Part shown: positions 14,050 to 62,060 of the stretch, one piece after another
Layout of the letters: every line of letters begins with the position of its first letter
Position numbering within the stretch: the first letter of the stretch is position 1
Assembly: GCF_026241335.1 (NCBI RefSeq)
Contig: NZ_JAPHAV010000017.1
Coordinates: 1-64,000, forward strand
Direction of reading: 5' to 3'
DNA from: Ochrobactrum chromiisoli
GTDB lineage: Bacteria; Pseudomonadota; Alphaproteobacteria; Rhizobiales; Rhizobiaceae
DNA: 64,000 nucleotides
Notes under the pieces: model-generated
Told to the model about the DNA's origin: nothing
The model's database searches: none
Seen by the model: the letters and a program-made list of their open reading frames with translations, nothing else
Position numbers and translations under genes: made by a program

Positions 14050-14079
14050 GCCGGGCACGGCGAATAAGAGTTTCAGATT

Positions 14080-38989: not shown

Positions 38990-38998
38990 ATTCTTTCC

Positions 38999-41673: not shown

Positions 41674-41815
41674 GCAAATCCGTCCCATCACATCGTGCTG
41701 GATCGACTAAAAACGCGATCCAACACGGCTTTCGTGAACTGCTGACGTCATCAAACAACCCAGTTTAATGGCAGTATGACAAACGCTAGCAAGACGATTT
41801 TAAGAGCAGGCTGGC

Positions 41816-43624: not shown

Positions 43625-44392
43625 ATGCGCACTGCAATTGTGACTGGAGCAAGCCGTGGATTGGGTAGAGCTTTTGCAATAGGCCTGGCAAAAGACGGAT
43701 TCGCACTGAGCCTTTGCGCTCGTGATCACGCAGCATTGGAAGAGACCGCGGAGCTTGTCCGCGCAGCTGGCTCGCCGCAGATTGTTATCATTGCTGCTGA
43801 TCTTTCGCAGGCAGGCGTAGCTGAAAAAGTCGTCACCGAAACGCTCGCAGCAACAGGACGAATTGATGCTCTGATCAACAATGCGGGCGCAACCAAGCGT
43901 GGCGATTTCTTATCGCTGACAGATGAAGATTTCCATGAGGGATTTGCTCTCAAATTCCATTCAACCGTTCGGTTTTGTCGTGCCGCATGGGATGCGCTGT
44001 CTCAGAGCAAGGGCAGTATCATAAACATATCAGGGGTTGGTGCACATACACCTGAACCGGATTTTACCATCGGCGGATCGGTCAATTCGGCGCTTATCAA
44101 CTTTACAAAGGCAATTTCCAAACGTGCGCAGGGAACAGGCATGCGCATCAACACGCTTTGTCCCGGCCACATCGTGACTGATCGTTTAAGCCAGCGGATC
44201 GAAGTATTGTCCAAAGAACGCGATATTTCCATTGAAGCAGCACGCGAAGAAATCCGCGAGGCACAGGGCATCCAGCGTTATGGCGAGGCAGATGAAGTGG
44301 CAAGCGTGGTGCGCTTCCTGTGCAGCCCAGCGGCTGCTTATGTGCATGGAACAGTCATCAATGTCGATGGCGGCGCAACACCGGGGATATAG
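43625..44392 (+). CDS. Short-chain dehydrogenase fold protein lacking the YxxxK pair
   Basis: 255 residues of SDR type: the cofactor motif TGASRGLGRAFAIG and NNAGATKRG are intact and Ser is present in INISGVGAH. However, aligning on ALINFTKAISK, where ordinary SDRs have YxxxK the sequence reads GGSVN, so both the catalytic Tyr and Lys are missing. It may be an isomerase, dehydratase or binding protein, or reduce by another mechanism. It is alone on the plus strand between the secreted protein and the GntR gene. Its placement near the catabolic operons suggests a shared role, not proven. Confidence 0.85.
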   Translation: MRTAIVTGASRGLGRAFAIGLAKDGFALSLCARDHAALEETAELVRAAGSPQIVIIAADLSQAGVAEKVVTETLAATGRIDALINNAGATKRGDFLSLTDEDFHEGFALKFHSTVRFCRAAWDALSQSKGSIINISGVGAHTPEPDFTIGGSVNSALINFTKAISKRAQGTGMRINTLCPGHIVTDRLSQRIEVLSKERDISIEAAREEIREAQGIQRYGEADEVASVVRFLCSPAAAYVHGTVINVDGGATPGI

Positions 44393-44406
44393 AGCGCAAA
44401 ATGAAA

Positions 44407-44429
44407 ATGCCGGGGCACAGCCCCGGCAT
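44407..44429. terminator. Hairpin between SDR and GntR genes
   Basis: Stem TGCCGGGGC/GCCCCGGCA with a 3-nt loop, between two convergent stop codons, so it probably ends both transcripts. Confidence 0.75.
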
Positions 44430-44435
44430 CGTATT

Positions 44436-45152
44436 TCAGGCATCAGCCTCTTCTGCAATGCGTTCCCGCAGAATAGCAATTGCAACCTTACCCGCGTTCA
44501 TAACGTGATAAGCCGCCGCCTTGCGCGCTTCCTTGCCACGTCTGGCCGCAAGATGGCCAACCACCTCTTCAAGTTCAGCCAGACTTTCGCGCGTCCGTCC
44601 CGGCGCGCCCAGCGATGTCGCCCGCAAAACCATAACACGTGCGTTCAACGATGACAGCGTATGACCAAGCGCTTCATTATGCGCGCCAAAAATCAGGCAA
44701 TCATAAAAAGCGTTCTTGGCTTGCAAGCGTTCTAGTGGATCGGTGATTTTGTCACCTTGCTTGAGCACTTCAAAAGCAGCTTTGAGCGCTTCTATATCCT
44801 CATCGGTTGCATTGCGAGCAAACAGCTCACAGGCAAGTCCTTCAAGTTCAACACGAACCTGATAGATACCTTCAGCCTGCTCTGGCTTCAAGCGTGCCAC
44901 AATCGGCCCGCGATGCGGTACGACCTCAACAAGGCCTTCGCTTTCAAGCTGACGAAGTGCCTCGCGCACAGCTGTACGGCTAACACCTGTCATCTCACAC
45001 AGATCGCGTTCGGTAATGCGCTGACCTGCCGTAAAATACCCCACTGCAATCGAATTGCGAATGCTTTCCGTCACACTATGACGAACTGGTGCAGCAGCCT
45101 TGACGACTTTAAAATCAATAGGCGGAGTTTTTCCGTTCATGGATATAGTCAT
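44436..45152 (-). CDS. GntR-family regulator, FCD (FadR) subfamily
   Basis: 238 residues from ATG 45152, chosen because AAAGGGG lies 9 bases upstream; the longer frame starts at 45176. The N-terminal winged helix reads GQRITERDLCEMTGVSRTAV then REALRQLESEGLVEVVPHRG, and the rest is the all-helical FCD ligand domain with metal-binding His residues. It is immediately downstream of the transaminase operon and is the only regulator in the catabolic region, so it is the likely repressor of the two divergent operons. An FCD-type palindrome in their shared promoter region supports this. Confidence 0.9.
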   Translation of the reverse strand: MTISMNGKTPPIDFKVVKAAAPVRHSVTESIRNSIAVGYFTAGQRITERDLCEMTGVSRTAVREALRQLESEGLVEVVPHRGPIVARLKPEQAEGIYQVRVELEGLACELFARNATDEDIEALKAAFEVLKQGDKITDPLERLQAKNAFYDCLIFGAHNEALGHTLSSLNARVMVLRATSLGAPGRTRESLAELEEVVGHLAARRGKEARKAAAYHVMNAGKVAIAILRERIAEEADA

Positions 45153-45264
45153 AAGTTTATACCCCTTTTGGTACATGGGGAGCGATATTACCGTATTACT
45201 ATACGCTAATTGCTTGTTTTGAAAGCATTAGATTTCCGACAATGCCTGTTTGGCGTGCAAAGCT

Positions 45265-46449
45265 TCAATTTTGTGCTGCTTCTATAACCGCCATCGCAGC
45301 CGCAACGCCCGCGCCCACATTAATCCCCTCGACACCCGCGGCCTTGAGACCTCCAGCAATTGCCGCAACGGATATAAGAGAATAAGTCGGTCGAGCAGTT
45401 GGTCCCATATGGCCGATCCGGGTCAGTTTTCCGAGTGTTTCACCACGACCGGATGAGAACACCACCCCATAAACATCACGGATCGAAGCGCGCAGCTTCG
45501 CTTCGTCAATGCCTTCAGGAATCGCCACGGCTGTGCAGGTTGCAGATGCTATCTCTTCACGAGCGGCCCAGAGTTTCAGCCCTGCCGCCTGCACCCCCGC
45601 CCGACAAGCCTTTGCTGTGAGTGCATGACGTGCCCACACATTTTCCTCGCCTTCATCCAAATAAATATCAAGCGCCGCACCAAGCCCATTGATCTCGGAA
45701 ACCGAAGGCGTAAAGGGAAATGAGCGCTCTGCCTTATATGCGTCTTTCCAATCAATAATCGAAAGAATTGAAGCACGGGGCACCTCAGGATTGGCTGCCA
45801 TTTTCTCCCATGCCGCATCGCTCACATGCAGCAGTGTCAATCCGGGCGGACAACCCAGACATTTATTTGGGCCAGTTACAAAAATATCGGCAAATGATGT
45901 CTCTGGCAAAACATCCATTCCGCCAAAAGCCGAAACGGAATCCACGATGAACAGTTTGCCTGCAGCTCTTACAACAGCACCAATTTCCGCAACCGGATTG
46001 ACCGTGCCAGAGGGAGTATCGTGATGACAAATCGAAACCACGGCAACATCTGGCCGCTTCTTTAAAAAATCCGCCACAGCATCTGCTGTCAGCACTTCAT
46101 TATAGGGTACAGTCAGTTCAACGACTTCCTTTGCATAACGTGCCGCCCAATAGCCAAAGCCTTTGCCATAAACACCCGAAACGAGATTAAGCACGACATC
46201 GTTCCGGGTAATCAGTGAGGCAGCAGCCGCTTCCAGTCCAAGCACCGGCTCGCCCTGAAGGATGACCGGCGGCGTATTCGTATGAAAGGCGCGTTGCACC
46301 TTTACATTCACCGATTCGTAAAATGCCAGAAACGCCGGATCATAATCATAAAGAACAGGCCGAGACAGCGCACGCAGCACTGCCGGATAGGCATCCACAG
46401 GGCCTGTTGTCAGCGTGAAGATTGGATCAGCAATTTTCCCTAAGCTCAT
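45265..46449 (-). CDS. Pyridoxamine-pyruvate transaminase
   Basis: 394 residues from ATG 46449 (MSLGKIADPIFTLTTGPVDA). PPAT (EC 2.6.1.30) converts pyridoxamine plus pyruvate to pyridoxal plus alanine, the pyridoxamine entry step of vitamin B6 degradation. It is a class V fold-type I aminotransferase, and from memory it matches the characterised Mesorhizobium loti enzyme (393 residues) along its whole length: VLYDYDPAF, GEPVLGLEAAAASLI, CHHDTPSGT and GRGETLGKLTRIGHMGPTA. The PPAT-specific residues fall in register: Glu67, Lys196 in VTGPNKCLG, Arg335 and Arg344. Serine-glyoxylate transaminase is the alternative but fits less well. It begins 1 bp after the MmgE/PrpD stop, last gene of the minus-strand operon. 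Confidence 0.85.
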   Translation of the reverse strand: MSLGKIADPIFTLTTGPVDAYPAVLRALSRPVLYDYDPAFLAFYESVNVKVQRAFHTNTPPVILQGEPVLGLEAAAASLITRNDVVLNLVSGVYGKGFGYWAARYAKEVVELTVPYNEVLTADAVADFLKKRPDVAVVSICHHDTPSGTVNPVAEIGAVVRAAGKLFIVDSVSAFGGMDVLPETSFADIFVTGPNKCLGCPPGLTLLHVSDAAWEKMAANPEVPRASILSIIDWKDAYKAERSFPFTPSVSEINGLGAALDIYLDEGEENVWARHALTAKACRAGVQAAGLKLWAAREEIASATCTAVAIPEGIDEAKLRASIRDVYGVVFSSGRGETLGKLTRIGHMGPTARPTYSLISVAAIAGGLKAAGVEGINVGAGVAAAMAVIEAAQN

Positions 46450-46450
46450 A

Positions 46451-47818
46451 TCACTCTCCCATTGATGTTTGTGATTTTCGTGTGTTTGCAAGAAAAGCCG
46501 CGCCATCAACAGCATCTTCGACCGTTTCAAGCGAAGCGATCAGCATATCGGCATCCAGATCGATACCGCGCCAGCTAATCTGCGCTCGAAGTTTTGCTGC
46601 AAGATCGGCATCCGTCATCGGATAATCCAACCCACCTTTGGCGGCATCAATCCTGTGCTGAATTTTGCGTCCGTCCTGCAACAGAAGACAAACTTCAGCA
46701 GCTTCGAATGTAAAAGAAGGATCATCCAAAAATGAAAGCTTTGACGCCAAATCCTTCAACTTCGGATGCTGCACCGCGTGATCGGAAAAGGCCTCAAGAT
46801 CGGCCCTGCCCCACAGCAAACTCACCGCAACAGCATGCTGCGCGCTCACCTGCGAAAGCCTTCCCGTGGTGACATTCGGGCGATCTGTGCGCTGCCGCAG
46901 CAGGGGATGACCGGTTAAAACTATCGAAGCAATATCGTCGGCGTGAAAATCTCCTTTCGCATGAAGTGTAAGGCACGCCTCAATAACCGGATTAAGAACA
47001 ACACCACATGGATAAGGCTTGAAAGAGTTTTTTAGAATCTCCCAGCGGCTTCCCAACCCATCTGTAAGAGCTGAAAAGTCCGGGGCATCTGCGTGCAGTG
47101 CGAGAAAGCCTCGCGGTCCCTCAAGCGGTGATGCGGGCCCAGTATAGCCGTTGGCGGCCAGCAACGCAGACATCAAACCAGCACGCGCGGCCTGCCCCAC
47201 CGAGAGGCTTTTTGACATCGTACCAAGTGTTTCGACAGAACCTGCCCCCTGTGCGAGTGCATGTCCTAAAGCATCGACAAGCTCCGCAGGAGAAAGCTCC
47301 AGGATACGACCAGCAGCAAGTGCTGCGCCAAATACACCGCACGTCGATGTGATATGCCAGCCACGCGCATAGTGAACGGGGTGCAAAGCATTCCCCAGCC
47401 GACAAGTGACTTCCGCTCCAAGAACGAAAGCTTCAATAAGCGCATGCCCTGATACCGGCTTTCCCTCCAAGGCCAGCGTCTCGGCTAATGCGAGGACAGC
47501 GGGTGCAACAGGGGCAGACGGGTGAATAACTGTCGGAACATGGGTATCGTCGAAATCAAAAATATTGGCTGATGCTGCATTAATATAAGCCGCCCAAAGC
47601 ATATCAGCGCGTTCTGAACGTCCGATAAGGCTTGCCGTTGCAAGCCCGGAAAAAGCTGGCAGCATTGCCACCAGCTTCTGGACTGCAACCTCATTTGAAC
47701 CGCCTATCGCCGTGCCCACCATATTAAGCAGCGAGCGCCGACCGGCGGCGCGCACGGCATCAGGCATTGCCGGTGGCGAATGAACAAACTCGGCTATTGT
47801 AGCGCTCAAATCCGCCAT
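46451..47818 (-). CDS. MmgE/PrpD family protein
   Basis: 455 residues of the MmgE/PrpD fold, which includes 2-methylcitrate dehydratase, cis-aconitate decarboxylase and iminodisuccinate epimerase. Conserved segments are NMVGTAIGGSNEVAV, FDFDDTHVPTVIHPSAPVAPA and GALAQGAGSVETLGTMSKSL-like (ALAQGAGSVETLGTMSKSL). The family acts on di- and tricarboxylates, so a role on the substituted maleate or fumarate produced after ring opening is plausible. It starts 1 bp after the dehydrogenase upstream and ends 1 bp before the transaminase. Confidence 0.87.
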   Translation of the reverse strand: MADLSATIAEFVHSPPAMPDAVRAAGRRSLLNMVGTAIGGSNEVAVQKLVAMLPAFSGLATASLIGRSERADMLWAAYINAASANIFDFDDTHVPTVIHPSAPVAPAVLALAETLALEGKPVSGHALIEAFVLGAEVTCRLGNALHPVHYARGWHITSTCGVFGAALAAGRILELSPAELVDALGHALAQGAGSVETLGTMSKSLSVGQAARAGLMSALLAANGYTGPASPLEGPRGFLALHADAPDFSALTDGLGSRWEILKNSFKPYPCGVVLNPVIEACLTLHAKGDFHADDIASIVLTGHPLLRQRTDRPNVTTGRLSQVSAQHAVAVSLLWGRADLEAFSDHAVQHPKLKDLASKLSFLDDPSFTFEAAEVCLLLQDGRKIQHRIDAAKGGLDYPMTDADLAAKLRAQISWRGIDLDADMLIASLETVEDAVDGAAFLANTRKSQTSMGE

Positions 47819-47819
47819 A

Positions 47820-48716
47820 TCAGATGCCAGCCGCTTTGCCGCGCACCTGCGTATCCGCCCACTGCTCCAGCGGACGAATAATCGCAGTCATATCTGCATC
47901 CGGCCCTAGATCAGCTTTGGTAATGGAAAACAGCATGCGCACGGCATTACCTACCAGCATAGGCACACCAAGACGTTCGGCTTCCTCAAGGCAAAGGCGA
48001 ATATCTTTAAGCGAAAGCGCGATTGCGAAGCCAAAATCAAAACTGCGTGGCAGCACAAAACGCGGAATTTTATCGACACTTGCCGATGTACGACCCGAAC
48101 CGGCATTGAGCACTTCGATCATAACATCAGCATCAAGTCCGGCTTTTGCCCCCATCACCATCGCCTCAGAAGTGATCGCAAGGGCTGCCGCAGAGCAAAT
48201 ATTGTTGATGAGTTTCATCACCTGCGCCTTGCCGGGCTCTTCGGCGACACGGATCACTTTACCAAGCGTCAAAAGCATCGGCTCAACAACGCCGAAATGT
48301 GCAGATGGACCAGCAGCCATCAAGGCAAGCGTTCCCTTCTTCGCACCTGCAACACCACCAGAAACAGGGCAGTCTACCAAGGCGATTCCAGTTTCAGACA
48401 GGATTTCGGCCAAATCCATTTCGGCCTTCGGCCCAGTCGTAGAAAGATCGACAACGCGTTTCACGCGCCCAGGATTTTCTGCAATGGAACGTCCGACAGC
48501 CAGAACAACTTCAGGTGTTGGAAGGGACAAAAAGACAGTTTCAACGCGGGCACAAAGCGCTTCAAGACTATTGGCAGCATCTGCACCGGCGTCGGTCAGA
48601 GCCGCAACCGCAGCCTCTGCACGATCATTGACCACAAGCTTATAGCCTGCACCAATAATACGCTCTGCCATTGGGCGCCCCATATTGCCTAGCCCAACAA
48701 AACCCACTTCAGACAT
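47820..48716 (-). CDS. 3-hydroxyisobutyrate dehydrogenase-family oxidoreductase
   Basis: 298 residues of the beta-hydroxyacid dehydrogenase family. N-terminal NAD motif VGFVGLGNMGRPMAERI, substrate motif DCPVSGGVAGAKKG, and the catalytic Lys in GKAQVMKLINNI are intact. The family oxidises hydroxymethyl groups next to a carboxylate, for example 2-(hydroxymethyl)glutarate in nicotinate fermentation. That is the kind of group a B6 ring fragment (CH2OH from C5) would carry, so it is a good candidate for a late step of the pathway. Confidence 0.9.
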   Translation of the reverse strand: MSEVGFVGLGNMGRPMAERIIGAGYKLVVNDRAEAAVAALTDAGADAANSLEALCARVETVFLSLPTPEVVLAVGRSIAENPGRVKRVVDLSTTGPKAEMDLAEILSETGIALVDCPVSGGVAGAKKGTLALMAAGPSAHFGVVEPMLLTLGKVIRVAEEPGKAQVMKLINNICSAAALAITSEAMVMGAKAGLDADVMIEVLNAGSGRTSASVDKIPRFVLPRSFDFGFAIALSLKDIRLCLEEAERLGVPMLVGNAVRMLFSITKADLGPDADMTAIIRPLEQWADTQVRGKAAGI

Positions 48717-48745
48717 TCCACTCTCCTGTTATCGTGGTCCCGCTG

Positions 48746-49528
48746 TCACGCAAAAGACCAGCCATTATCTACCGGTATTGCCGCACCATTGATGCCTTCG
48801 CTGGCAGAGCCACAAAGAAACAATGCAAGTGCGGTCACCGTGTTCATTGGAATAAACTTTCCACCCGGCTGGCGGGTTGAAAGAAAGAGGTCTGTTGCCT
48901 CTTCTTCGCTTAAGCCCTTTTCAACGGCCAGTGCACTGATCCGCGCACGGGCAGAATCTGTCGCCATCAGTCCTGGGCAAATAGCGTTGCAGGTGATTGC
49001 AGTTGAAGCCAGTTCAAGCGCCACAGTCCGCGTAAGCCCAATCATTGCATGTTTGGTGGTGACATAATCAGCACGCTCCGCAAGCGCGATCAGACTGTAA
49101 ACCGAGGCCATGTTGATGATCCTGCCCCAGCCGCGCTTTTGCATGTCCGGAAGACAAGCCCGGATCAACCGAAATGGAGCGGAAAGATTGACTTCCAGCG
49201 CCCGATCCCAATCAGCATCCGCAAGCGATTGAACCGGTGAAATTTTACGGATAACAGCATTGTTGATGAGAATATCGATGCTGCCTAAATGTTCTTTAGC
49301 ATGCACCACAAGCTCATCGGCAGTACCCTCTTGCGATAAATTTAGCGCTACAGCGCCGACTGGCTGGCCCGTCTCGTTGGATAAAGCCTGCGCAACATCA
49401 ACCACTTCCGGCCGAATATCCGTAAGAAAAACGCGGTTTTTTGCCTTTGCAAATACACGAGCAAGCTCAAGTCCCAACCCAAGCGCCGAACCTGTGATCA
49501 GCACACCGCATCCTGTATCCGAGCTCAT
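48746..49528 (-). CDS. Short-chain dehydrogenase/reductase
   Basis: 260 residues from ATG 49528, which overlaps the preceding lactonase stop as ATGA; an earlier Met at 49546 is less likely. Cofactor motif TGSALGLGLELARVF, NNAVIRK, and an intact catalytic Ser and Tyr-Lys (MASVYSLIALAERADYVTTK). By position it is the best candidate for a pyridoxal 4-dehydrogenase-like step (pyridoxal to 4-pyridoxolactone), although the sequence is not specifically close to the M. loti enzyme as I recall it. Confidence 0.88.
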   Translation of the reverse strand: MSSDTGCGVLITGSALGLGLELARVFAKAKNRVFLTDIRPEVVDVAQALSNETGQPVGAVALNLSQEGTADELVVHAKEHLGSIDILINNAVIRKISPVQSLADADWDRALEVNLSAPFRLIRACLPDMQKRGWGRIINMASVYSLIALAERADYVTTKHAMIGLTRTVALELASTAITCNAICPGLMATDSARARISALAVEKGLSEEEATDLFLSTRQPGGKFIPMNTVTALALFLCGSASEGINGAAIPVDNGWSFA

Positions 49529-50376
49529 TTTGCCAGCTCCTGCCACTTGAGAACTGGCTCTTCATCCAATCGAACCACAACGCCTTCAAGCGCATCTGAG
49601 GGCGCGCAATAAGCACGCATTACCGCTGGATCATGCCCGGGCACAATATGATCAAGGGTTGGCGCCAGCTCAATCAGCCGGGCATAGCCACGAATGAGTG
49701 CTGCCTCGTCAAATAGCACAGGAAACGGATTCTCACGCTCCATATTGGCATAAAAATGCGTCGCATCAGACGCCAGAACAACCCAGCCGCGTTTGGTATA
49801 AACGCGAACTGCCTGCAAACCTGCACTATGGCCCGGCACAGAATGCAGCCATATGCCCGATGCGAGTTCCTTATCCCCACGATGAAACTCAATTCTGCCA
49901 GCATAAAGAGTGCGGATATAGTCGACGATGTTTTCAACATCGAACGGCGCACGTGCTTTTGGATCGCACATACATGGGCCTGTCGCATGCCCTGCCTCAT
50001 TGACCTGAAGATGGAAGTGCGCTGACGGAAAATCGCCGAGCGTTCCGGCATGGTCGTAATGGAGATGCGTGAGTATCACCTCGCAGACCTGTTGAGCATC
50101 AACATCCATCAGCGCAAGTGCATCAACGGGACGACGCAAAAGCGTGCGCCCCCGCGCATCGGCTGCTTGCTGACCAAACCCCGTATCAATGACATAGACT
50201 TCGTCGCCCCGACGCGCCAACCAGATGAAATAATCCAGATTTTCGCCCGACTCATGCGGGTCGGCATGAAGAAAATTATCGTGTGCCATCCGCCCGCCAT
50301 GTGTGGCGTAACGAAGTGCGTAAAGCTCAAAAGGCACAGGTTTGCCGTTAAATTCTGCTGCTGGAGCCGCCATCAT
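49525..50376 (-). CDS. Metallo-beta-lactamase fold hydrolase, lactonase-like
   Basis: 283 residues of the N-acyl homoserine lactonase-like group. The zinc motif HxHxDH reads LTHLHYDHAGTLGDF, with further ligands in VPGHSAGLQAV, ASDATHFYAN and IVPGHDP. In M. loti B6 degradation the next enzyme after pyridoxal dehydrogenase is 4-pyridoxolactonase, also of this fold, and here the gene precedes and overlaps an SDR gene. I therefore suggest a lactonase making 4-pyridoxate, as inference. It is the first gene of the minus-strand operon. Confidence 0.85.
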   Translation of the reverse strand: MMAAPAAEFNGKPVPFELYALRYATHGGRMAHDNFLHADPHESGENLDYFIWLARRGDEVYVIDTGFGQQAADARGRTLLRRPVDALALMDVDAQQVCEVILTHLHYDHAGTLGDFPSAHFHLQVNEAGHATGPCMCDPKARAPFDVENIVDYIRTLYAGRIEFHRGDKELASGIWLHSVPGHSAGLQAVRVYTKRGWVVLASDATHFYANMERENPFPVLFDEAALIRGYARLIELAPTLDHIVPGHDPAVMRAYCAPSDALEGVVVRLDEEPVLKWQELAK

Positions 50377-50440
50377 TTGCCCGCTTTACGTTGATGTCTG
50401 CCAAAAACTGCCGAACTTTGTTTTCAGTATGACCGTAATC

Positions 50441-50467
50441 TTGTCATACAATCTATTGACAGGTCAA
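50441..50467. promoter_or_regulatory. Candidate GntR/FCD operator and promoter in the divergent region
   Basis: TTGTCATACAA (50441-50451) fits the FCD-type consensus TNGTNNNACNA and is a palindrome. Five bases on, TTGAC-AG-GTCAA (50456-50467) is another palindrome whose TTGACA, with TAACCT 18 bases later, could be the -35/-10 of the plus-strand operon. The region lies between the two divergent catabolic operons. Confidence 0.45.
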
Positions 50468-50569
50468 GCCCGGCATGTCTAACCTTGAGGAAATCAGGAC
50501 GGCAAAATCAATCTGACGGAAGACGACAAGAACGAAGCAGCCGTACTGTCCACCTTAACGGAGAGATGC

Positions 50570-50980
50570 ATGACTCGTCCCGAATTTAGCGGTGAACAAT
50601 TCCAGAAAGGGCTGAAGGTCAGACGTGAAGTGCTTGGTGACGGCTACGTAGCGCCTTCGCTTGCCAGTGCGGACGATCTGACTGCGCCATTGCAGAAGCT
50701 GGTCACTGAATGGTGCTGGGGTGAAATCTGGACCCGTCCGGGGCTGGAGCGCAAAACCCGCAGCTTTCTCAACCTCGCAATGCTGACCGCATTGAACCGT
50801 CCGCATGAAGTAAAGATTCATGTTCGCGGCGCTCTGAATAACGGCGTTACGGAAGAAGAAATCGTCGAAGTTATTCTTCAGGCTGCAATCTATTGTGGCG
50901 TACCAGCCGCCCTCGATTCTATGCGCGTTGCAACGGAAGTCATCCGTCAGATGCGCGAGGAAAAGGCGGCAGGCGCCTAA
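50570..50980 (+). CDS. Carboxymuconolactone decarboxylase family protein
   Basis: 136 residues resembling 4-carboxymuconolactone decarboxylase (PcaC), with GLERKTRSFLNLAMLTALNR, ELKIH-type region (HEVKIHVRGALNNGVTEEEI) and ILQAAIYCGVPAALDSM. There is no CxxC pair, so it is not an AhpD-like peroxidase reductant. It may decarboxylate a ring-opening product or act on a lactone. First gene of the plus-strand operon, behind a GGAGAG Shine-Dalgarno. Confidence 0.88.
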   Translation: MTRPEFSGEQFQKGLKVRREVLGDGYVAPSLASADDLTAPLQKLVTEWCWGEIWTRPGLERKTRSFLNLAMLTALNRPHEVKIHVRGALNNGVTEEEIVEVILQAAIYCGVPAALDSMRVATEVIRQMREEKAAGA

Positions 50981-51048
50981 TCGAAATACCGGAAACGCTC
51001 AATAAAAACGGGGAACACCCGCGATTCCAATTGTAATAGGAGGCCCAT

Positions 51049-52536: not shown

Positions 52537-52545
52537 GCCCCACAT

Positions 52546-52577
52546 GCCCCGTCCGTGAAAATCGGGCGGGGCTTTTT
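52546..52577 (+). terminator. Hairpin with T run inside the catabolic operon
   Basis: Stem GCCCCGTCCG/CGGGCGGGGC (one G-T pair), 7-nt loop, then TTTTT, 10 bases after the monooxygenase stop. It probably attenuates expression of the downstream genes relative to the first two. Confidence 0.75.
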
Positions 52578-52601
52578 CTTTCGGGAATATTGGAGATTGC
52601 G

Positions 52602-52991
52602 ATGGATCACGCCACGCTTGTCGACCAGTTTTATGAAGCCTATGCGTCACGCGATGCGGAAGGTGCTGCATCCCTTTATCATGCGGATGGCTGGCATGAA
52701 GAAGTTGCGATGGGAAAGCGTCGCGAAGGACACACAGCACTTTCAGAAGGATTGACCGGTTTTTGGCGTATGCTGCCAGATGTTGCATGGGAACGCCGCG
52801 GTTACATTCGTTCAGGCAATCAGATTGCTGTTCCTTACCACATGACCGGAACCTTCACGCCACGCGGAGAAGACACCACACCGCGTAAGATCGCCCTTGA
52901 TGGTCTGCATATTTTTGAAGTCAGCGACGGATTGCTGAGAGGCACAAAAGATATGTGGGATCTGGACCTCTTTAAAGCGCAGACGAGTTGA
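52602..52991 (+). CDS. SnoaL/NTF2-like fold protein
   Basis: About 129 residues from ATG 52602 (MDHATLVDQFYEAYASRDAE), behind GGAGATTG; a frame from 52590 is equivalent. The NTF2-like pattern is clear: a helical start, ASLYHADGWHEEVAMG, FWRMLPDVAWERRGYIRSGN, then LDGLHIFEVSDGLLRGTKDM. Members are small dimerising cyclases, isomerases or binding proteins. Role here unknown, but it is embedded 5 bp before the first amidase. Confidence 0.8.
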   Translation: MDHATLVDQFYEAYASRDAEGAASLYHADGWHEEVAMGKRREGHTALSEGLTGFWRMLPDVAWERRGYIRSGNQIAVPYHMTGTFTPRGEDTTPRKIALDGLHIFEVSDGLLRGTKDMWDLDLFKAQTS

Positions 52992-52995
52992 GACG

Positions 52996-54414
52996 ATGAA
53001 CGAGCTGGTAACAAAAGACGGCATCGCAATCGGCGAACTGATTTCAAAAGGTGACATCAGCGCAACCGAAGTACTTGAAGCGAGCATCGAACGAATAGAA
53101 CGCCTTAATCAGAAACTGAATGCCGTTGTTCATGCGCATTTTGACCTTGCCCGACAACAAATCAAAAACGGACTGGCAAAAAGCCCGCTTTCTGGCGTAC
53201 CGATGCTTCTCAAAAACACGGGCTTCGAGGCCGAAGGCATGCTCCTGTCGAGCGGTTCGGAGTTGCTGCGTAATGTGGTTAGCAAGCGCGATTCTACAAT
53301 TACGGCTCGTTACAAAGCTGCCGGAATGGTCATTCTGGGTAAATCCAACACGCCCGAATTCGCGCTGAGTTTCACGAGCGAGCCAGAGGCTTTCGGTCCA
53401 ACCCGAAATCCATGGGATTTAAACCGTACGGCTGGCGGATCATCTGGTGGTTCCACCGCGGCCGTTGCAAGTGGCATGGTGCCGCTTGCCAACAGTTCCG
53501 ACGGTGCAGGATCGACACGACTTCCCGCAAGTCATTGCGGCTTATTCGGGTTCAAACCATCACGGCTTGTTAATCCCATTGGCCCGGTTGCCGCAGAAGC
53601 CATCGGTGGCATGTCCACGCCCCATGCCGTCACATGGTCCGTGCGCGACAATGCGGCGATGCTGGATATTTCTGGCGGCGGTGATCTGGGCGATCCATGG
53701 GCGTCGCCCCAAACGTCCGGCAGCTATCTCTCAGCGCTGGACATGACGCCACCGCGCCTAAAAGTAGCAATGATTATCAATGCGCCTGACGGCAGTCCAA
53801 TTGCACCGGAAATGATCGAAAGCGTTCGCGAAACAGCAAAATTGCTGCAAGACCTTGGCCATAACGTAGAAGAAGTGGCAGATGCGCGCTATGATGCGGA
53901 GACTCTTAAAACCGCGTGGCGGATCGTTGTTGGCACCAATGTCGCGCTCGGCGTGACAGGTGGCGATGCCACATCAGCCAACATAGCCAAGCTAGAGCCA
54001 GTCAATCAGGAGTGGGTGCGTGAAGCACTGGCCATACCCGCTACGCGCTATCTTTGGGCGATTAATCAGCTTCATACCTCTTCACGCACACTGGCGAAAT
54101 TCTTCAATCAGTACGACATCATGCTAACCCCTGCCGCGGCCGAACCAGCTCCCCTTCTGGGTAAGCTTGCAGGTAAAGGCCAAAACATTGATGCGTTTTA
54201 CGATCAGTTCTGGTCCCACTCTCCCTTTACTGCTGTGTTCAACGCGTCCGGTTGTCCCGCAATGTCTGTTCCACTCGGCATGAGTCCATCAGGCCTGCCG
54301 ATTGGCTCGCATATCGGAGCGGGTTTTGGAAAAGACGCATTGCTCTTTTCACTGGCAGCAGAGTTGGAGCGTGCAGCTCCGTGGACTAACCGCCGTCCAG
54401 CGATTTTTGGCTAA
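52996..54414 (+). CDS. Amidase signature enzyme (first of two)
   Basis: 472 residues. The Ser-cisSer-Lys catalytic set is present: Lys in SGVPMLLKNTGFEAEG, serines in GGSSGGSTAAVASGM and NSSDGAGSTRLPAS. Such enzymes hydrolyse amides in the cytoplasm. As one of two amidases downstream of a ring-opening dioxygenase context, it could remove the N-acetyl group or the terminal amide of the ring-cleavage product. Confidence 0.9.
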   Translation: MNELVTKDGIAIGELISKGDISATEVLEASIERIERLNQKLNAVVHAHFDLARQQIKNGLAKSPLSGVPMLLKNTGFEAEGMLLSSGSELLRNVVSKRDSTITARYKAAGMVILGKSNTPEFALSFTSEPEAFGPTRNPWDLNRTAGGSSGGSTAAVASGMVPLANSSDGAGSTRLPASHCGLFGFKPSRLVNPIGPVAAEAIGGMSTPHAVTWSVRDNAAMLDISGGGDLGDPWASPQTSGSYLSALDMTPPRLKVAMIINAPDGSPIAPEMIESVRETAKLLQDLGHNVEEVADARYDAETLKTAWRIVVGTNVALGVTGGDATSANIAKLEPVNQEWVREALAIPATRYLWAINQLHTSSRTLAKFFNQYDIMLTPAAAEPAPLLGKLAGKGQNIDAFYDQFWSHSPFTAVFNASGCPAMSVPLGMSPSGLPIGSHIGAGFGKDALLFSLAAELERAAPWTNRRPAIFG

Positions 54415-54424
54415 GGAAAGCACT

Positions 54425-55723
54425 ATGAAAAATTCAGAAATCCTTGCCCTCAACGCACGCGAGATCGCTGCTGCCGTTAATGCCAGGGTACTTTCCGCCC
54501 GCGCGGTCACAGACGCCTGTCTCGAAGCAATCGCCGAGAAGGATGGCCCGATACAGGCCTGGGAATATCTCAATGCCGAACAGGCACGCGCTAACGCTGA
54601 CCATATTGACAGCAATAACATTACTGGAGTTCTCGCCGGCGTTCCGATTGGCGTAAAAGATGTGATCGACACGATCGACATGCCCACCGGCTATGGCACA
54701 CCAATCTATAAGGGTTTTCAACCGCCATGGGATGCGCCTGCGGTACAAATTGCGAAGAATTCCGGTGGCCTGATCCTGGGCAAGACAGTCAGCACCGAGC
54801 TTGCCATGGCAAGCCCAAACAAAACGCGCAACCCGCATAACCCGGCACACACGCCCGGCGGCTCGTCTTCCGGTTCGTGCGCCGCCGTCGCAGCAGGCAT
54901 GATACCACTGGCATTCGGCACGCAAACATCAGGCTCAGTTATCCGCCCGGCAAGTTTTTGCGGCGTGACTGCATTCAAACCAACCTTCGGCGCGATCAAT
55001 ACCGTTGGCATAAAGGTCTTGTGCCACGGGCTTGATACGCTGGGCATCATTGCACGTAATATTGGCGATGCATCGCATTGTGCAGCCGCACTGAGCGGGC
55101 GATCTGAACTCGCCGACCTCACGCCACCAACTCGCCCCCGTATCGGCGTACTGCTCGGAACACGCCTCGACAAAGCTGAAGACTGCGCAATTGAGACGGT
55201 TAACCGGCTCGCGCGCATGGCTGAAGCAGCAGGCGCTCAGTTGACAATCATTCCGGCACCCAGCTGGTTTGACGGTATTTTCGATCTGCATGAAGCCGTT
55301 ATGGGCTGGGAAGTCACACAGTCCCTTGCTTCCGAAATCAGCCACAACTGGAACGAGTTGACACCCGTTACACGTACAATGCTCGAGGATCAGGGGCGCA
55401 TCGATGAAGCACGCTACCGCTCAGCAATGAACGAAATTCCGGGCATCCGCAATATGATGGACGCTATTCTATCTCGCTTTGATGCTGTGCTTACACTGGC
55501 CGCTCCCGGCGAAGCCCCTGAAGGCATGCCAACCGGCAATCCTATATTCAATCGCCTCTGGAGCGTTTTGCAGGTGCCGCTCATCTGTCTTCCGGCATCC
55601 AAAGGACCAAAAGACATGCCAATCGGCGTTCAGCTCGTCGGCGCACGCGGCGCAGATCACCGTCTCGCCTCGGCAGCACTTTTCCTGGAAAACACTATCG
55701 CTGCAAAAGGAGGCACATTATGA
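54425..55723 (+). CDS. Amidase signature enzyme (second of two)
   Basis: 432 residues from ATG 54425, behind AAGGAAAG; an overlapping longer frame from 54302 is rejected. The Lys is in AGVPIGVKDVIDTIDM, the serines in GGSSSGSCAAVAAGM and GTQTSGSVIRPASF, closer to the GatA-like pattern than the first amidase. The two are clearly diverged (not a recent duplication), so they probably act on different amide bonds. Its last 4 bases overlap the flavin reductase. Confidence 0.9.
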   Translation: MKNSEILALNAREIAAAVNARVLSARAVTDACLEAIAEKDGPIQAWEYLNAEQARANADHIDSNNITGVLAGVPIGVKDVIDTIDMPTGYGTPIYKGFQPPWDAPAVQIAKNSGGLILGKTVSTELAMASPNKTRNPHNPAHTPGGSSSGSCAAVAAGMIPLAFGTQTSGSVIRPASFCGVTAFKPTFGAINTVGIKVLCHGLDTLGIIARNIGDASHCAAALSGRSELADLTPPTRPRIGVLLGTRLDKAEDCAIETVNRLARMAEAAGAQLTIIPAPSWFDGIFDLHEAVMGWEVTQSLASEISHNWNELTPVTRTMLEDQGRIDEARYRSAMNEIPGIRNMMDAILSRFDAVLTLAAPGEAPEGMPTGNPIFNRLWSVLQVPLICLPASKGPKDMPIGVQLVGARGADHRLASAALFLENTIAAKGGTL

Positions 55724-56235
55724 GCCATCCCCAGACTGATCCGTTAACTGATGATTTTCGCACGGCAATGCGGCAACTTGCAGCGACCGTTAACATCATT
55801 ACCGCAGGAGAGGGCGAAACCCGGCGTGGGCTCACGGCCACAGCTGTTTGTTCAATGTCGATCACACCACCCTCCATGCTCGTCTGCGTCAATCGCTTTG
55901 GCGAAGCACACAAGGCGATCACAATGGCTGGCAATTTCTGCGTCAATATCCTTGCCGATGCGCAGCGGGAAATTGCCATGCGCTTTGCCGGCCAGATCGG
56001 CGAAATAGGCGAAGACAAATTCGCACCTTATAGCTGGACCCGTCTAGCAACAGGTGCACCTGCACTTGATTTGGCCATGGTCAATCTTGATTGCGAAATT
56101 TCATCTGTATCTGAGACAGAAAGTCATTCAATTTTCATCGGAAAGGTGAAAGCCATTCGTTTTGGCCCAGAGACTTCGCCGCTGCTTCACTACAATCGCA
56201 ACTTCTTTACGCTGGCCAATCAGACAGCGCTGTAA
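55720..56235 (+). CDS. Flavin reductase (HpaC-like), monooxygenase partner
   Basis: 171 residues of the flavin reductase-like domain family: FRTAMRQLAATVNIITAGEG then GLTATAVCSMSITPPSMLVC, NRFGEAHKAI, NFCVNILADAQREIAMRFAG and a DCEISSVSETESHSIFIGKV end. It reduces FAD or FMN with NAD(P)H and passes it to an HpaB-type oxygenase. It is separated from the oxygenase gene by the NTF2-like and amidase genes, but in the same operon, and is coupled to the second amidase by a 4-bp overlap. Confidence 0.9.
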   Translation: MSHPQTDPLTDDFRTAMRQLAATVNIITAGEGETRRGLTATAVCSMSITPPSMLVCVNRFGEAHKAITMAGNFCVNILADAQREIAMRFAGQIGEIGEDKFAPYSWTRLATGAPALDLAMVNLDCEISSVSETESHSIFIGKVKAIRFGPETSPLLHYNRNFFTLANQTAL

Positions 56236-56360
56236 ACCATTCAACTAAGGGAACCAGCTGCAACCACAATAAAAAACAAGATGTAAGGTTTTCCCAAACC
56301 AAAGCACTTGTGGATGCAGCAATCAAACAAACGGGCAAATGCCCAACGGAGGTATCTAGC

Positions 56361-57404
56361 ATGTCTATCAGTGACGCACAGTTCTTGAAGGGCTGGAGAC
56401 AGGTGCTCGAAATGTGCAACCTGAAAGCTGGCGAGCAAGTTACAATCCTGACCAGCGACGATAGTAACAAACAGATTGCCTATATTGCCAAGCTCGCCGC
56501 TTCTGATCTTGGCGCTGTCGTCACCGAACTGAACCTTGCGCCCGTGAACAGCGAAAAAGCTATATCGCCCGATAAATCCGGTTATATCGGCAAGACCCCG
56601 TTGGATGGCAACATCGCAGCCCTTGCCTGTCTCAAGGCCTCTGATCTTGTCATCGACACTTTGCAACTGTTGTTCTCTAAGGAACAGGAGCAAGTGCTGA
56701 AGACCGGCACGCGCATGTTGCTCGCAGTCGAACCGCCTGCAATCATGATGCGTCAGATTCCCCGCCCGGAAGACAAGCTGCGCGTTCTTGCTGCCGCCAA
56801 GAAAATTGGTGCGGCCAAAGAAATGCATGTCACATCAAACGCTGGCACGGATTTCCGTTGCCGTCTTGGTCAATATCCGGTGCTGACACAATATGGCCTT
56901 GCCGACGAGCCGGGCCGTTGGGATCATTGGCCCAGCTGCTTCTCCGCACGTTGGCCGGATGAAGGCAGTGCCGAAGGCACAATCGTTATCGACGAAGGCG
57001 ACATTCTGCTACCATTCAAAAAATATGCGCGTGCTCCGATCACTGTCACCATTGAAAAAGGCTTCATTGTTGACATAAAGGGGGGCTATGATGCTGAATT
57101 CATGCGCAAATTCATGGAAAGCTTCGATGATCCGCGTGCTTACGCCATGGCTCATGTCGGCTGGGGACTTGAGAACCGCGCGAACTGGACTGTACTGGGT
57201 CTTTATAACCCCGAAGCACAGCTTGGTATGGACGCACGCTCTTTTGCCGGCAACTTCCTCTGGTCATCGGGACCAAACACGGAAGCAGGGGGAGATCGGG
57301 ATACGCCGTGCCATCTCGACATTCCGCTGCGCAATTGCTCCGTTTCGCTCGATGGTGAAGTGATGACGCTGGAAGGCGCTGTTATCCCTGAAGATCAGAA
57401 GTAA
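56361..57404 (+). CDS. NicX-like 2,5-dihydroxypyridine 5,6-dioxygenase
   Basis: 347 residues from ATG 56361, with CGGAGG upstream (a GTG frame runs to 56310). NicX opens the ring of 2,5-dihydroxypyridine between C5 and C6 with a non-heme Fe(II) centre, giving N-formylmaleamate. Long matching blocks to Pseudomonas putida NicX (350 residues, from memory): LKTGTRMLLAVEPP, GQYPVLTQYGLADEPGRWDH and DTPCHLDIPLRNC. The metal ligands fall at His265, His318 and Asp320 in this numbering, the positions reported for NicX. Ring cleavage of a 2-methyl substrate by the same chemistry would leave an N-acetyl instead of N-formyl amide, a link to the two amidases. The gene ends 4 bp before pyridoxine 4-oxidase. 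Confidence 0.88.
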   Translation: MSISDAQFLKGWRQVLEMCNLKAGEQVTILTSDDSNKQIAYIAKLAASDLGAVVTELNLAPVNSEKAISPDKSGYIGKTPLDGNIAALACLKASDLVIDTLQLLFSKEQEQVLKTGTRMLLAVEPPAIMMRQIPRPEDKLRVLAAAKKIGAAKEMHVTSNAGTDFRCRLGQYPVLTQYGLADEPGRWDHWPSCFSARWPDEGSAEGTIVIDEGDILLPFKKYARAPITVTIEKGFIVDIKGGYDAEFMRKFMESFDDPRAYAMAHVGWGLENRANWTVLGLYNPEAQLGMDARSFAGNFLWSSGPNTEAGGDRDTPCHLDIPLRNCSVSLDGEVMTLEGAVIPEDQK

Positions 57405-57408
57405 GACC

Positions 57409-58932
57409 ATGGCACAATATGATGTGGCAATTATCGGCGCAGGCTCTGCTGGCGCCCTGATTGCAGCGCGTTTAAGCGAAGATCCAGCACGCAATGTTCT
57501 GTTGGTGGAAGCAGGTGGAACACCGTCAGACCCGGATATTTTAAGGCCCTGTATGTGGCCAGCGATCCAGCATCGCAACTATGATTGGGACTACAAGACA
57601 ACACCGCAGAAATATGCCGCAGGCAGAAGCTTCGCATGGGCGCGTGGGAAAGGCCTCGGCGGCTCAAGCCTGCTTCACGCCATGGGCTATATGCGCGGGC
57701 ATCCAGCAGATTTTGAAGTTTGGGCAGAAGCGACAGGCGATCCGCGCTGGAGCTGGGAAGGTCTTCTGCCATCTTTCATGGCGAATGAAGATCATGTCTA
57801 CGGCGGTGATGGTATCCACGGCAAAGGTGGTCCAATGCCCGTTTGGATTCCTGATGAAGAAGTAAGCCCCCTCACACGCGCATTCATGTCAGCAGGCAAT
57901 GCACTCGGCCTGCCGCGCATTCCAGGTCATAATACTGGCCAAATGATTGGGGTCACACCCAATTCTCTCATGATCCGTGATGGCCGCCGTATAACAGTTG
58001 CAGAAGCATGGCTCACACCTGAAGCCTGCGCACGGTCAAACCTCACAATCAAAACTGGCACGCTGACACATTATCTCAAGCTGGAAAAATCAAAGGTTGC
58101 GGCACTTGAACTTTCCGGACCAGATGGCTTGGAAACAATAACAGCAACTCAAATCATTTTGTCAGCCGGTTCGCTTGAAAGTCCGGCACTTCTGATGCGC
58201 TCTGGCATCGGGCGCGAAGAAGTACTGCATGAAGCCGGTGTGACGTGCCGCATCAAGGCACCGGAACTAGGGCTTAATCTTATGGACCACCTACTTGGCG
58301 CAGGAAATCTTTATTCAACGAGTAAGACACTACCTCCATCACGCCTGCAACACTCGGAAAGCATGGCTTATATGCGCGCAGGAGATTTTTCGGCTGATGG
58401 TCAGCCGGAAATTGTTGTCGGATGTGGTGTGGCTCCGATCGTTTCAGAAAGCTTTACTGCGCCCGCACCGGGAAGCGCTTATTCGCTCCTTTTCGGAGTT
58501 ACACATCCCACAAGTCGCGGGGAAATACGCATAACCGGAGATAGCCCGGACAGTCCTCTGATAATTGATCCCCGATATCTGCAAACAGAAAACGACCGGA
58601 AGCTCTTTCGTATAGCATTAAACGCAGCTCGTGAAATCGGACGTCACACAGAACTGGCTGAATGGCGTAGCCACGAAATTTTACCCACTCCTCTGGGAAC
58701 AGCCGAAAACACTGATGCTTTTATCGCCAAGGCTGTGATCACACATCACCACCCCTCCGGCACATGTCGTATGGGCAAAGATGACGCCTCGGTTGTAGAT
58801 CCTGATCTGCGCCTGCGCGGAGTGGAAAACCTTTATGTTGTTGATGGATCGGTACTACCCGGCCTCACAGCGGGCCCGATCCATGCTGCTGTGCAGGCCA
58901 TAGCGGAAAACTTTGCAGCGCGGTTCAATTGA
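57409..58932 (+). CDS. Pyridoxine 4-oxidase (GMC oxidoreductase)
   Basis: 507 residues of the GMC oxidoreductase family. N-terminal FAD motif AIIGAGSAGALIAARLSEDP, GKGLGGSSLLHAMGYMRGHP, and the C-terminal HHHPSGTCRMG (His446-448) with Pro490 in LTAGPIHAAV. Most GMC enzymes have His or Asn where this one has Pro, a feature I recall of pyridoxine 4-oxidase, and the whole sequence is very close to the characterised M. loti enzyme as I remember it. It oxidises pyridoxine to pyridoxal with O2. It is the last gene of the plus-strand operon, 4 bp after the NicX-like gene. A choline dehydrogenase-like role is the main alternative, less well supported. Confidence 0.87.
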   Translation: MAQYDVAIIGAGSAGALIAARLSEDPARNVLLVEAGGTPSDPDILRPCMWPAIQHRNYDWDYKTTPQKYAAGRSFAWARGKGLGGSSLLHAMGYMRGHPADFEVWAEATGDPRWSWEGLLPSFMANEDHVYGGDGIHGKGGPMPVWIPDEEVSPLTRAFMSAGNALGLPRIPGHNTGQMIGVTPNSLMIRDGRRITVAEAWLTPEACARSNLTIKTGTLTHYLKLEKSKVAALELSGPDGLETITATQIILSAGSLESPALLMRSGIGREEVLHEAGVTCRIKAPELGLNLMDHLLGAGNLYSTSKTLPPSRLQHSESMAYMRAGDFSADGQPEIVVGCGVAPIVSESFTAPAPGSAYSLLFGVTHPTSRGEIRITGDSPDSPLIIDPRYLQTENDRKLFRIALNAAREIGRHTELAEWRSHEILPTPLGTAENTDAFIAKAVITHHHPSGTCRMGKDDASVVDPDLRLRGVENLYVVDGSVLPGLTAGPIHAAVQAIAENFAARFN

Positions 58933-62048: not shown

Positions 62049-62060
62049 GTTCCGGTTTCC

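Follow-up and report, generated by a model that had tools for sequence, protein, structure and literature searches.

By which enzymes is the ring of vitamin B6 opened in a bacterium whose B6 genes are grouped with a hydroxylase and a dioxygenase of families known from other substrates? The question is raised by a stretch of 64,000 nucleotides from Ochrobactrum chromiisoli (NCBI RefSeq assembly GCF_026241335.1, contig NZ_JAPHAV010000017.1, positions 1 to 64,000; the window in what follows), in which genes for a B6 transporter, for pyridoxamine-pyruvate transaminase (PPAT) and for pyridoxine 4-oxidase (PNO) lie together with genes for an HpaB-type hydroxylase, an HpaC-type flavin reductase and a NicX-family dioxygenase. 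Bacterial degradation of vitamin B6 was discovered in the late 1950s, and passages of PMC3538738 describe two routes, the genes of the first being known from Mesorhizobium loti; two routes are also described in parts of PMC6253932. The locus appears to be a third B6 catabolic route, in which known enzyme families are combined into a new pathway for a function already known, and no HpaB-NicX pathway for B6 came up in searches of the open-access PMC literature. On the evidence of comparative genomics, B6 catabolism by an HpaB-NicX route is well supported here. That the locus is a B6 cluster with ring opening by HpaB and NicX is very probable, and a scheme in which uptake, the PNO and PPAT reactions, hydroxylation at C6, cleavage between C2 and C3 and the amidase steps all hold jointly is probable.

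The genome that carries the window is 4.65 Mb in size and 99.98% complete, and its closest NicX relatives were found in Brucella (formerly Ochrobactrum) species, with 99% identity in B. pituitosa. A first-pass annotation had placed the cluster at 43625-58932. Its gene content held, every gene that it named being an intact open reading frame (ORF) at or near the position given, but its extent was too short: the B6 system spans approximately 37252-58932, and the transporter (38057-42859) and a small, apparently secreted protein (42946-43350) also belong to it. The minus strand carries a metallo-beta-lactamase-fold (MBL) hydrolase, a short-chain dehydrogenase/reductase (SDR2), a HIBADH-family enzyme, MmgE/PrpD, PPAT and a GntR/FCD regulator; farther along the same strand come the transporter's substrate-binding protein, ATPase and two permeases and a RibF-like gene. 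The plus strand carries a carboxymuconolactone-decarboxylase-family protein (CMD), HpaB, a SnoaL-like protein, amidases 1 and 2, the flavin reductase, the NicX-like protein and PNO. A further SDR (SDR1) and the small protein sit between the transporter and the regulator. According to the ORF coordinates the spacing is operon-like, many adjacent genes overlapping or lying 11 bases apart or less.

B6 uptake and entry enzymes

38057..38989, minus strand: putative B6 ABC transporter permease 1 (NF047928, 481.3 bits; cut-off 465)
38999..40090, minus strand: putative B6 ABC transporter permease 2 (NF047929, 518.2 bits; cut-off 400)
40087..41691, minus strand: putative B6 ABC transporter ATPase (NF047930, 740.5 bits; cut-off 670)
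41816..42859, minus strand: putative B6 ABC transporter substrate-binding protein, BMP family (NF047927, 471.5 bits; cut-off 400)
45265..46449, minus strand: PPAT (NF046070, 642.7 bits; cut-off 600)
57409..58932, plus strand: PNO (PDB 4ha6/3t37, pyridoxine 4-oxidase, 729 bits; next, choline dehydrogenase, 244 bits)

The transporter is complete, since all four subunits exceed the cut-offs of the NCBIfam equivalogs named "putative B6 ABC transporter". Homology and conserved context suggest that this BMP-type transporter would bring B6 vitamers into the cell, where PNO would convert pyridoxine, and PPAT pyridoxamine, to pyridoxal. The solved pyridoxine 4-oxidase matched by PNO is presumably the M. 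loti enzyme. The first-pass annotation had proposed both entry enzymes and had named choline dehydrogenase and serine-glyoxylate transaminase as what they might turn out to be instead; neither was found to be the case. Choline dehydrogenase was ruled out by the PDB search, in which PNO is far nearer to pyridoxine 4-oxidase, and serine-glyoxylate transaminase by the curated PPAT model, which was passed. The agreement of the PPAT, PNO and transporter evidence points to a B6 vitamer as the substrate. Homologous transporter genes also lie beside PPAT in clusters of other types that contain pyridoxal 4-dehydrogenase and 4-pyridoxolactonase (L083, L084 and L089; the models were run on L084).

The proposed ring-opening pair

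51049..52536, plus strand: HpaB-type FADH2-dependent hydroxylase (PF11794, 209 bits, and PF03241, 135 bits, both over the Pfam cut-off)
55720..56235, plus strand: flavin reductase, HpaC type (PF01613, 130 bits; HpaC model TIGR02296, 126 bits, cut-off 206)
56361..57404 (ORF opens at 56310, likely start 56361), plus strand: NicX-family Fe(II) ring-cleaving dioxygenase (PDB 7cn3, Pseudomonas putida NicX, 396.6 bits)

Both HpaB models and PF01613 were passed, in keeping with the HpaB-type monooxygenase and reductase recognised in the first-pass annotation. The nearest solved structures of HpaB in the PDB search include chlorophenol 4-monooxygenases, and two NCBIfam equivalogs for 4-hydroxyphenylacetate (4-HPA) 3-monooxygenase gave 222 bits (cut-off 480) and 124 bits (cut-off 885). 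The NicX-type dioxygenase was likewise correctly named. It matched none of the Pfam and NCBIfam models and is 51% identical to P. putida NicX; all four of its Fe(II) ligands are kept. In a residue table, from which L110 was left out (match too short), these ligands (H265, S302, H318 and D320) are identical in the window and in all of the 38 related loci described below, and so are H189, R293 and E308. Passages of PMC7910607 report that the substrate of P. putida NicX is held by H105, E177 and H189, and that the H105A variant is dead and the H105F variant active. H105 is replaced by F and E177 by Q in the window and in every one of the 38 loci, and H189 is unchanged. With the iron ligands kept and H105 and E177 replaced, the fold and iron site look conserved and the substrate pocket looks altered. 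The NicX subfamily of the B6 loci forms one side of a branch with an SH-aLRT value of 99 in a tree of 49 of the 62 rows.

The positions of attack proposed here are based on the family chemistry of HpaB-type and NicX-type enzymes. Hydroxylation of pyridoxal para to the 3-OH would fall at C6, and NicX-type cleavage of the C6-hydroxylated product would fall between C2 and C3. The two families and their co-conservation thus suggest that HpaB/HpaC hydroxylates ring C6 of pyridoxal or of a C4-oxidised form, and that the Fe(II) dioxygenase cuts the C2-C3 bond to release an N-acetyl amide, where NicX gives an N-formyl amide. On similar grounds, the two amidase-signature hydrolases would then free acetate and ammonia.

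Amidases and proposed lower-module genes

52602..52991 (ORF opens at 52590), plus strand: SnoaL-like small protein (PF12680, 62 bits)
52996..54414, plus strand: amidase-signature hydrolase 1 (PF01425, 284 bits)
54425..55723 (ORF opens at 54302, likely start 54425), plus strand: amidase-signature hydrolase 2 (PF01425, 206 bits)
50570..50980, plus strand: CMD-family protein (PF02627, 87 bits; PcaC model TIGR02425, 148.8 bits, cut-off 155.7)
46451..47818, minus strand: MmgE/PrpD family, proposed lower-pathway hydratase/isomerase (PF03972, 206.7 bits; PF19305, 92 bits)
47820..48716, minus strand: HIBADH-family beta-hydroxyacid dehydrogenase (PF14833, 134 bits; PF03446, 129 bits)
43625..44392, plus strand: SDR1 (PF13561, 151 bits)
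48746..49528 (ORF opens at 49546, likely start 49528), minus strand: SDR2, proposed to oxidise the C4 aldehyde or hemiacetal (closest solved structure, among the best 60 relatives compared for each SDR, 3-hydroxybutyrate dehydrogenase, 185 bits)
49525..50376, minus strand: MBL-fold hydrolase, proposed lactonase (PF00753, 58 bits; AiiA model, 58 bits, cut-off 375; PDB 3aj3, 25.6 bits)

The family assignments given earlier to the two amidases, CMD, MmgE/PrpD, the HIBADH-family enzyme, the lactonase-type hydrolase and the two SDRs all agreed with these scans. The HIBADH-family protein is under the cut-off of every equivalog among the NCBIfam results listed. Orthology of the MBL hydrolase to 4-pyridoxolactonase was ruled out by its score against NF047925 (41.9 bits; cut-off 325), and SDR1 and SDR2 were ruled out as pyridoxal 4-dehydrogenase (93.9 and 120.7 bits, respectively; cut-off 325). 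R. daejeonense has an adjacent SDR1 orthologue (79%).

Conservation across 38 loci

The contigs of other genomes were scanned with the NicX-like protein, and 38 loci were obtained, whose carriers fall into seven named families; the identity thresholds for the gene counts were set by us. PNO, NicX and amidase 2 are each present in all 38 loci, HpaB and amidase 1 each in 37, the SnoaL-like protein in 35 and HpaC in 34. This repetition of the same core indicates that the grouping of the genes is not due to chance. The PNO count includes one metagenome-assembled genome (MAG) contig, L034, in which PNO is split over two ORFs (13465-15000).

Two clades were distinguished. Clade A (20 loci) comprises Brucella/Ochrobactrum, Ciceribacter, Rhizobium, Paracoccus, Pseudogemmobacter, Metarhizobium and MAGs, and has the gene arrangement of the window, in which PNO closes the HpaB-NicX operon. 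Clade B (18 loci) comprises Rhizobium, Neorhizobium, Roseibium, Labrenzia, Chthonobacter, Ancylobacter and two MAG bins labelled Enterobacterales; it has the genes from HpaB to NicX together with PPAT, PNO, the B6 transporter and the small secreted protein, and the module is divergent from the transporter genes. In all 12 extended clade B loci PPAT and PNO have a regulator gene between them, the single one scanned being of the GntR/FCD type. The 10-kb flanks taken for clade A fall short of the transporter and often of PPAT, so that the counts of 1/20 and 11/20 found for these genes there are not absences.

The lower-module genes differ between the clades. MBL and SDR2 have relatives in 18 of the 20 clade A loci, and none was found in any of the 18 clade B loci; the two clade A exceptions are L024, on a short contig, and L015, where a block of genes is lost. 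CMD is present in 18/20 and 9/18 loci of clades A and B, respectively, and the HIBADH-family gene in 17/20 and 9/18. The nine clade B loci with CMD and HIBADH-family genes, eight from Ancylobacter and one from Chthonobacter and thus from two genera, also hold genes for a crotonase-like protein and a PcaD-like hydrolase (155 bits; cut-off 256). An AbrB-family membrane protein is encoded in the remaining nine (L029-L036 and L047), exactly where the CMD, HIBADH-family, PcaD-like and crotonase-like genes are missing.

Two individual cases were noted. In L015, from Brucella grignonensis, a gap begins inside MmgE and ends inside amidase 2 (taking in HIBADH, SDR2, MBL, CMD, HpaB, SnoaL and amidase 1) and the transporter genes look fragmentary, so that either the copy is decaying or the assembly is faulty. 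In L092 and L097, from Neorhizobium, a second amidase set and an AbrB protein lie beyond PNO, with isochorismatase and solute-binding genes (the latter two were scanned in L092), and no HpaC relative was found in either locus.

Control genomes and the canonical enzymes

Is the association with B6 genes specific? Of the 38 carrier genomes, 30 were searched for PPAT, 4-pyridoxolactonase and pyridoxal 4-dehydrogenase (L012, L013, L014, L016, L018, L023, L024 and L027 were omitted). PPAT passed its cut-off in all 30, versus eight genomes in an evenly drawn class sample of 385, the window's own included. NicX matches were found in 48 of these 385 genomes, and the window's genome alone carries the B6-type subfamily, the next best match having 57% identity; in 19 other NicX-family loci of the sample (best places only), no B6-cluster gene was seen in flanks of mostly about 1.5 kb.

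These results bear on the possibility that the HpaB-NicX module degrades another hydroxypyridine, such as nicotinate or 3-hydroxypyridine, and merely neighbours the B6 genes. The substrate of P. putida NicX is 2,5-dihydroxypyridine, and related HpaB-NicX-type modules with different transporters occur in Terrarubrum and Peribacillus. However, PPAT is present in all 30 genomes and PNO in all 38 loci, PNO lies in the same operon in clade A, the module is divergent from B6 transporter genes in clade B, and the substrate contact E177 is Q throughout. A nicotinate or 3-hydroxypyridine cluster was rejected on the co-occurring B6 genes, and a chance neighbourhood of this kind is the least credible of the explanations considered.

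The canonical enzymes were sought in the same genomes. Neither 4-pyridoxolactonase over its cut-off nor pyridoxal 4-dehydrogenase at an E-value of 1e-70 was found in any of the 30; the same pyridoxal 4-dehydrogenase search was positive in four of the seven further class-sample genomes with PPAT and silent in the window's own. The first-pass annotation had envisaged that a complete canonical pathway elsewhere in the genome would leave this cluster to an unrelated substrate. Genome-wide, the best scores were 38.7 bits for 4-pyridoxolactonase (NF047925, cut-off 325; the window's MBL hydrolase), 188.9 bits for pyridoxal 4-dehydrogenase (cut-off 325) and 167.2 bits for FHMPC 5-dehydrogenase (cut-off 500). 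None of the models NF047925, NF047923 and NF042925 was passed in this genome, in which 4-pyridoxate dehydrogenase, the dicarboxylate decarboxylase and AAMS hydrolase were not searched for. It had also been proposed to look for MHPCO elsewhere in the genome. FAD_binding_3 (PF01494) gave 18 matches, of which four are full-length, namely PobA, PRK06475 (salicylate-hydroxylase-like) and two UbiH-type proteins; in PDB comparison the PRK06475 protein matched MHPCO partially at 56 bits and salicylate monooxygenase at 164 bits. No MHPCO was recognised in this search, which relied on PF01494 rather than on a model of MHPCO itself and in which the four full-length proteins, but not the 14 partial matches, were identified.

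Several points weigh against a B6 pathway by HpaB and NicX. The scores of HpaB lie far under the 4-HPA monooxygenase cut-offs, which makes its substrate a putative one, and no HpaC relative was found in four of the 38 loci. F105 is common in NicX relatives, and among the 22 rows at greater distance six (L080, L081, L109, L118, L119 and L121) also combine F105 with Q177; since the pair is seen elsewhere and the engineered H105F variant of P. putida NicX is active, these changes are no proof of a new substrate. The class-sample count for PPAT (8/385) was obtained by scoring at most about five of the best candidates per genome, and the Fisher p value of 2.5e-39 for 30/30 versus 7/384 overstates independence, because the 30 genomes are related and the class sample is phylogenetically broader. 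The carrier genomes besides the window's own were checked for lactonase, pyridoxal 4-dehydrogenase and PPAT only, and SDR genes of a generic kind are located close to some loci (L015, L029 and L095), where a nearby C4-oxidising enzyme is possible.

Which compound is hydroxylated, and what becomes of the skeleton?

The conserved core encodes no oxidation of the C4 aldehyde, and the simplest order is therefore that pyridoxal is hydroxylated at C6 and cleaved between C2 and C3, after which acetate and ammonia are lost. We give pyridoxal itself a little less than an even chance of being the HpaB substrate.

A different order had been put forward in the first-pass annotation, namely that pyridoxal is first converted to 4-pyridoxate by an SDR and the MBL lactonase, and that 4-pyridoxate is what HpaB and NicX act on. 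The window's clade does possess genes for SDRs and an MBL-fold hydrolase, and parts of PMC6253932 describe pathway I as running via 4-pyridoxolactone and 4-pyridoxate; a pyridoxal-oxidising enzyme could also be encoded outside the cluster, a pyridoxal oxidase being named in parts of the same review. However, no MBL or SDR2 relative was found in any clade B locus, while PNO, PPAT, HpaB and NicX are kept there, the MBL hydrolase and SDRs lie far under the 4-pyridoxolactonase and pyridoxal 4-dehydrogenase cut-offs, and neither model was passed in any of the 30 genomes. This SDR/lactonase upper route was not borne out and is unlikely, whereas another part of that proposal, a B6 cluster with two amidases and with HpaB/HpaC and NicX in the place of the MHPCO-type oxygenase, was supported.

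Our main reading leaves room for either pyridoxal or a C4-oxidised form as the compound hydroxylated. A bolder reading, to which we give somewhat less than an even chance, is that pyridoxal is hydroxylated at C6 and opened at C2-C3 ahead of oxidation of the C4 aldehyde or the C5 hydroxymethyl group, that 4-pyridoxate is never an intermediate, and that the fate of the carbon skeleton depends on the clade. The skeleton would be processed by MBL, MmgE/PrpD and SDR2 or by the PcaD-like hydrolase and crotonase, in both cases with CMD and the HIBADH-family enzyme, or it would be exported by the AbrB protein, B6 then serving mainly as a source of nitrogen. In the window's clade, a lactone-type lower branch may be envisaged, though on weaker grounds than the ring-opening steps. 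SDR2 would oxidise the C4 aldehyde or hemiacetal, the hydroxymethyl group would close onto the neighbouring carboxyl to give a carboxylactone, CMD would decarboxylate it, the MBL hydrolase would open the lactone, MmgE/PrpD would hydrate or isomerise the product, and the HIBADH-family enzyme would oxidise the hydroxymethyl group. This order of the lower steps is a guess, held with less confidence than the view that pyridoxal itself is the HpaB substrate.

A carboxylactone formed after ring opening is suggested by the nine clade B loci in which a PcaD-like hydrolase replaces MBL beside the CMD-family protein; the step of the lactonase may accordingly follow that of ring cleavage. Against the lactone, the CMD of Ancylobacter and Chthonobacter is 62-63% identical to that of the window, hardly more than the background, since CMD in genomes without the module (G379, G071 and G340) reaches 57-58%; the HIBADH-family genes of the nine loci are 36-39% identical, which is at the level of the family, and two genera only are concerned.

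It might also be asked whether the module serves to scavenge nitrogen, with acetate and ammonia taken off B6 and the skeleton exported in clades without a lower module. The AbrB-family membrane protein in half of the clade B loci (9/18), precisely those without CMD, HIBADH-family, PcaD-like and crotonase-like genes, speaks for this version. The window's clade, however, does contain a lower module, and its loci yielded no AbrB gene; the exporter role of AbrB is itself conjectural, and unclustered lower enzymes were sought as CMD only, with family-level matches of 34-40% or none in the AbrB genomes. This nitrogen-scavenging version is improbable.

Comparison with known systems

Pathway I, of Pseudomonas MA-1 and Mesorhizobium loti MAFF303099, shares with the present system the entry by PNO and PPAT and the expected products acetate and ammonia. 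It differs in that pyridoxal 4-dehydrogenase, 4-pyridoxolactonase and FHMPC dehydrogenase are not over cut-off in the window's genome, and in that ring opening here would be performed by a two-component hydroxylase and an Fe(II) dioxygenase.

Could the locus instead hold the genes of the classical second pathway, which runs via isopyridoxal and 5-pyridoxate in Pseudomonas IA and Arthrobacter Cr-7? HIBADH-family enzymes act on hydroxymethyl groups, and in the present system, too, a hydroxymethyl group would outlast ring opening. The end product of the second pathway is 2-(hydroxymethyl)-4-oxobutanoate, in which the hydroxymethyl group is retained, as passages of PMC3538738 state. By homology, however, PPAT and PNO act at C4', which is where entry would take place here, and Pfam scans of the cluster revealed no FAD oxygenase of the single-component type. 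The locus is thus very unlikely to encode pathway II, whose ring-opening enzymes differ from those of the window.

With the P. putida nic pathway, the HpaB-NicX route would share a NicX-family dioxygenase and the logic of a para-dihydroxypyridine followed by amide hydrolysis. It differs in that HpaB/HpaC would hydroxylate here and in the H105 to F and E177 to Q replacements. In the nic pathway the amide hydrolysis is performed by NicD and NicF, versus two amidase-signature enzymes here. With the phenol hydroxylases HpaB/HpaC and TftD/TcpA, the hydroxylase shares the HpaB_N and HpaB domains, a flavin reductase and chlorophenol 4-monooxygenases among its nearest structures, whereas its scores are far below the 4-HPA cut-offs and its substrate would be a pyridine.

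If the HpaB-NicX route is correct, NicX-type dioxygenases and HpaB-type hydroxylases would be extended to a vitamin, and B6 catabolism would appear to evolve by the exchange of ring-opening modules on one chassis of transporter, PNO and PPAT. It would also give meaning to genes annotated as "amidase", "4-hydroxyphenylacetate 3-hydroxylase" or "2,5-dihydroxypyridine dioxygenase", as in R. daejeonense.

Related clusters

Five further loci (L083, L084, L089, L122 and L123) contain PPAT, PNO, pyridoxal 4-dehydrogenase, 4-pyridoxolactonase-type and FHMPC-dehydrogenase-type genes (the last at 500.6 bits in L084; cut-off 500) beside a B6 transporter. They also hold genes for a gentisate 1,2-dioxygenase-like cupin, an LVIVD-repeat protein, a RidA-type protein and a GST-type protein, and no MHPCO was seen in the stretches fetched, the whole genomes not having been searched. 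These clusters are possibly yet another version of ring opening. More distant modules of HpaB and a NicX-type protein ("leucyl aminopeptidase") were found in Thioclava (L080), Terrarubrum (L081) and Peribacillus (L082), which extends them to Bacillota; they include isochorismatase and FAD-synthetase-like genes, two of them have two amidases, and one has a B6-type transporter.

Neighbouring genes, secreted protein and regulator

37252..38040, minus strand: RibF-like FAD synthetase, behind the transporter genes (ribF model TIGR00083, 121 bits; below the cut-off of 184)
42946..43350, plus strand: small protein, apparently secreted (no Pfam match over cut-off; best 13.3 bits, cut-off 23.6)
44436..45176, minus strand: GntR/FCD regulator (PF00392, 60 bits; PF07729, 78 bits)
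50377..50569, no strand: divergent promoter region with an inverted repeat, GTATGAC-N9-GTCATAC (50427-50449), beside TTGACA (50456)

The next minus-strand genes (59549-63428) encode a histone-deacetylase-family protein, a GNAT protein, a 3,5-dioxohexanoate:acetyl-CoA acetone transferase (NF053538, 522 bits; cut-off 430) and an aminotransferase, and nothing ties them to B6. The RibF-like gene may be a member of the system and could possibly supply FAD. Its homologues adjoin HpaB/NicX-type genes in Thioclava, Terrarubrum and Peribacillus and also in Neorhizobium; none lies next to the transporter genes in R. daejeonense.

The work also brings out a family of PPAT-linked secreted proteins, which was absent from the first-pass annotation. 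The small protein of the window appears to be secreted, as judged by eye from its N-terminus. Members of the family are found in the window and in L029-L043, L045-L047, L078, L080 and L083-L087, and homologues are present in all 18 clade B loci. N33, C41, H47, W48, C92, G93, C122 and C131 are invariant in 20 sequences. The predicted structure is all-beta (pLDDT 82.9), and fold comparison gave no decisive match. In the class sample the protein was found in six of 385 genomes, all among the eight with PPAT over cut-off, in a search in which three of the six positive genomes had supplied profile rows and at most ten candidates were scored per genome.

The inverted repeat of the divergent promoter region (within 50427-50468) is a candidate operator of the GntR/FCD regulator. 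Among the 18 clade A intergenic regions extracted, the right part TGTCATACAATCT was found in all 18, TATGACCGTA in 17 and TTGACAGGTCAAG in 17; the left arm GTATGAC is complete in 13 of these regions.

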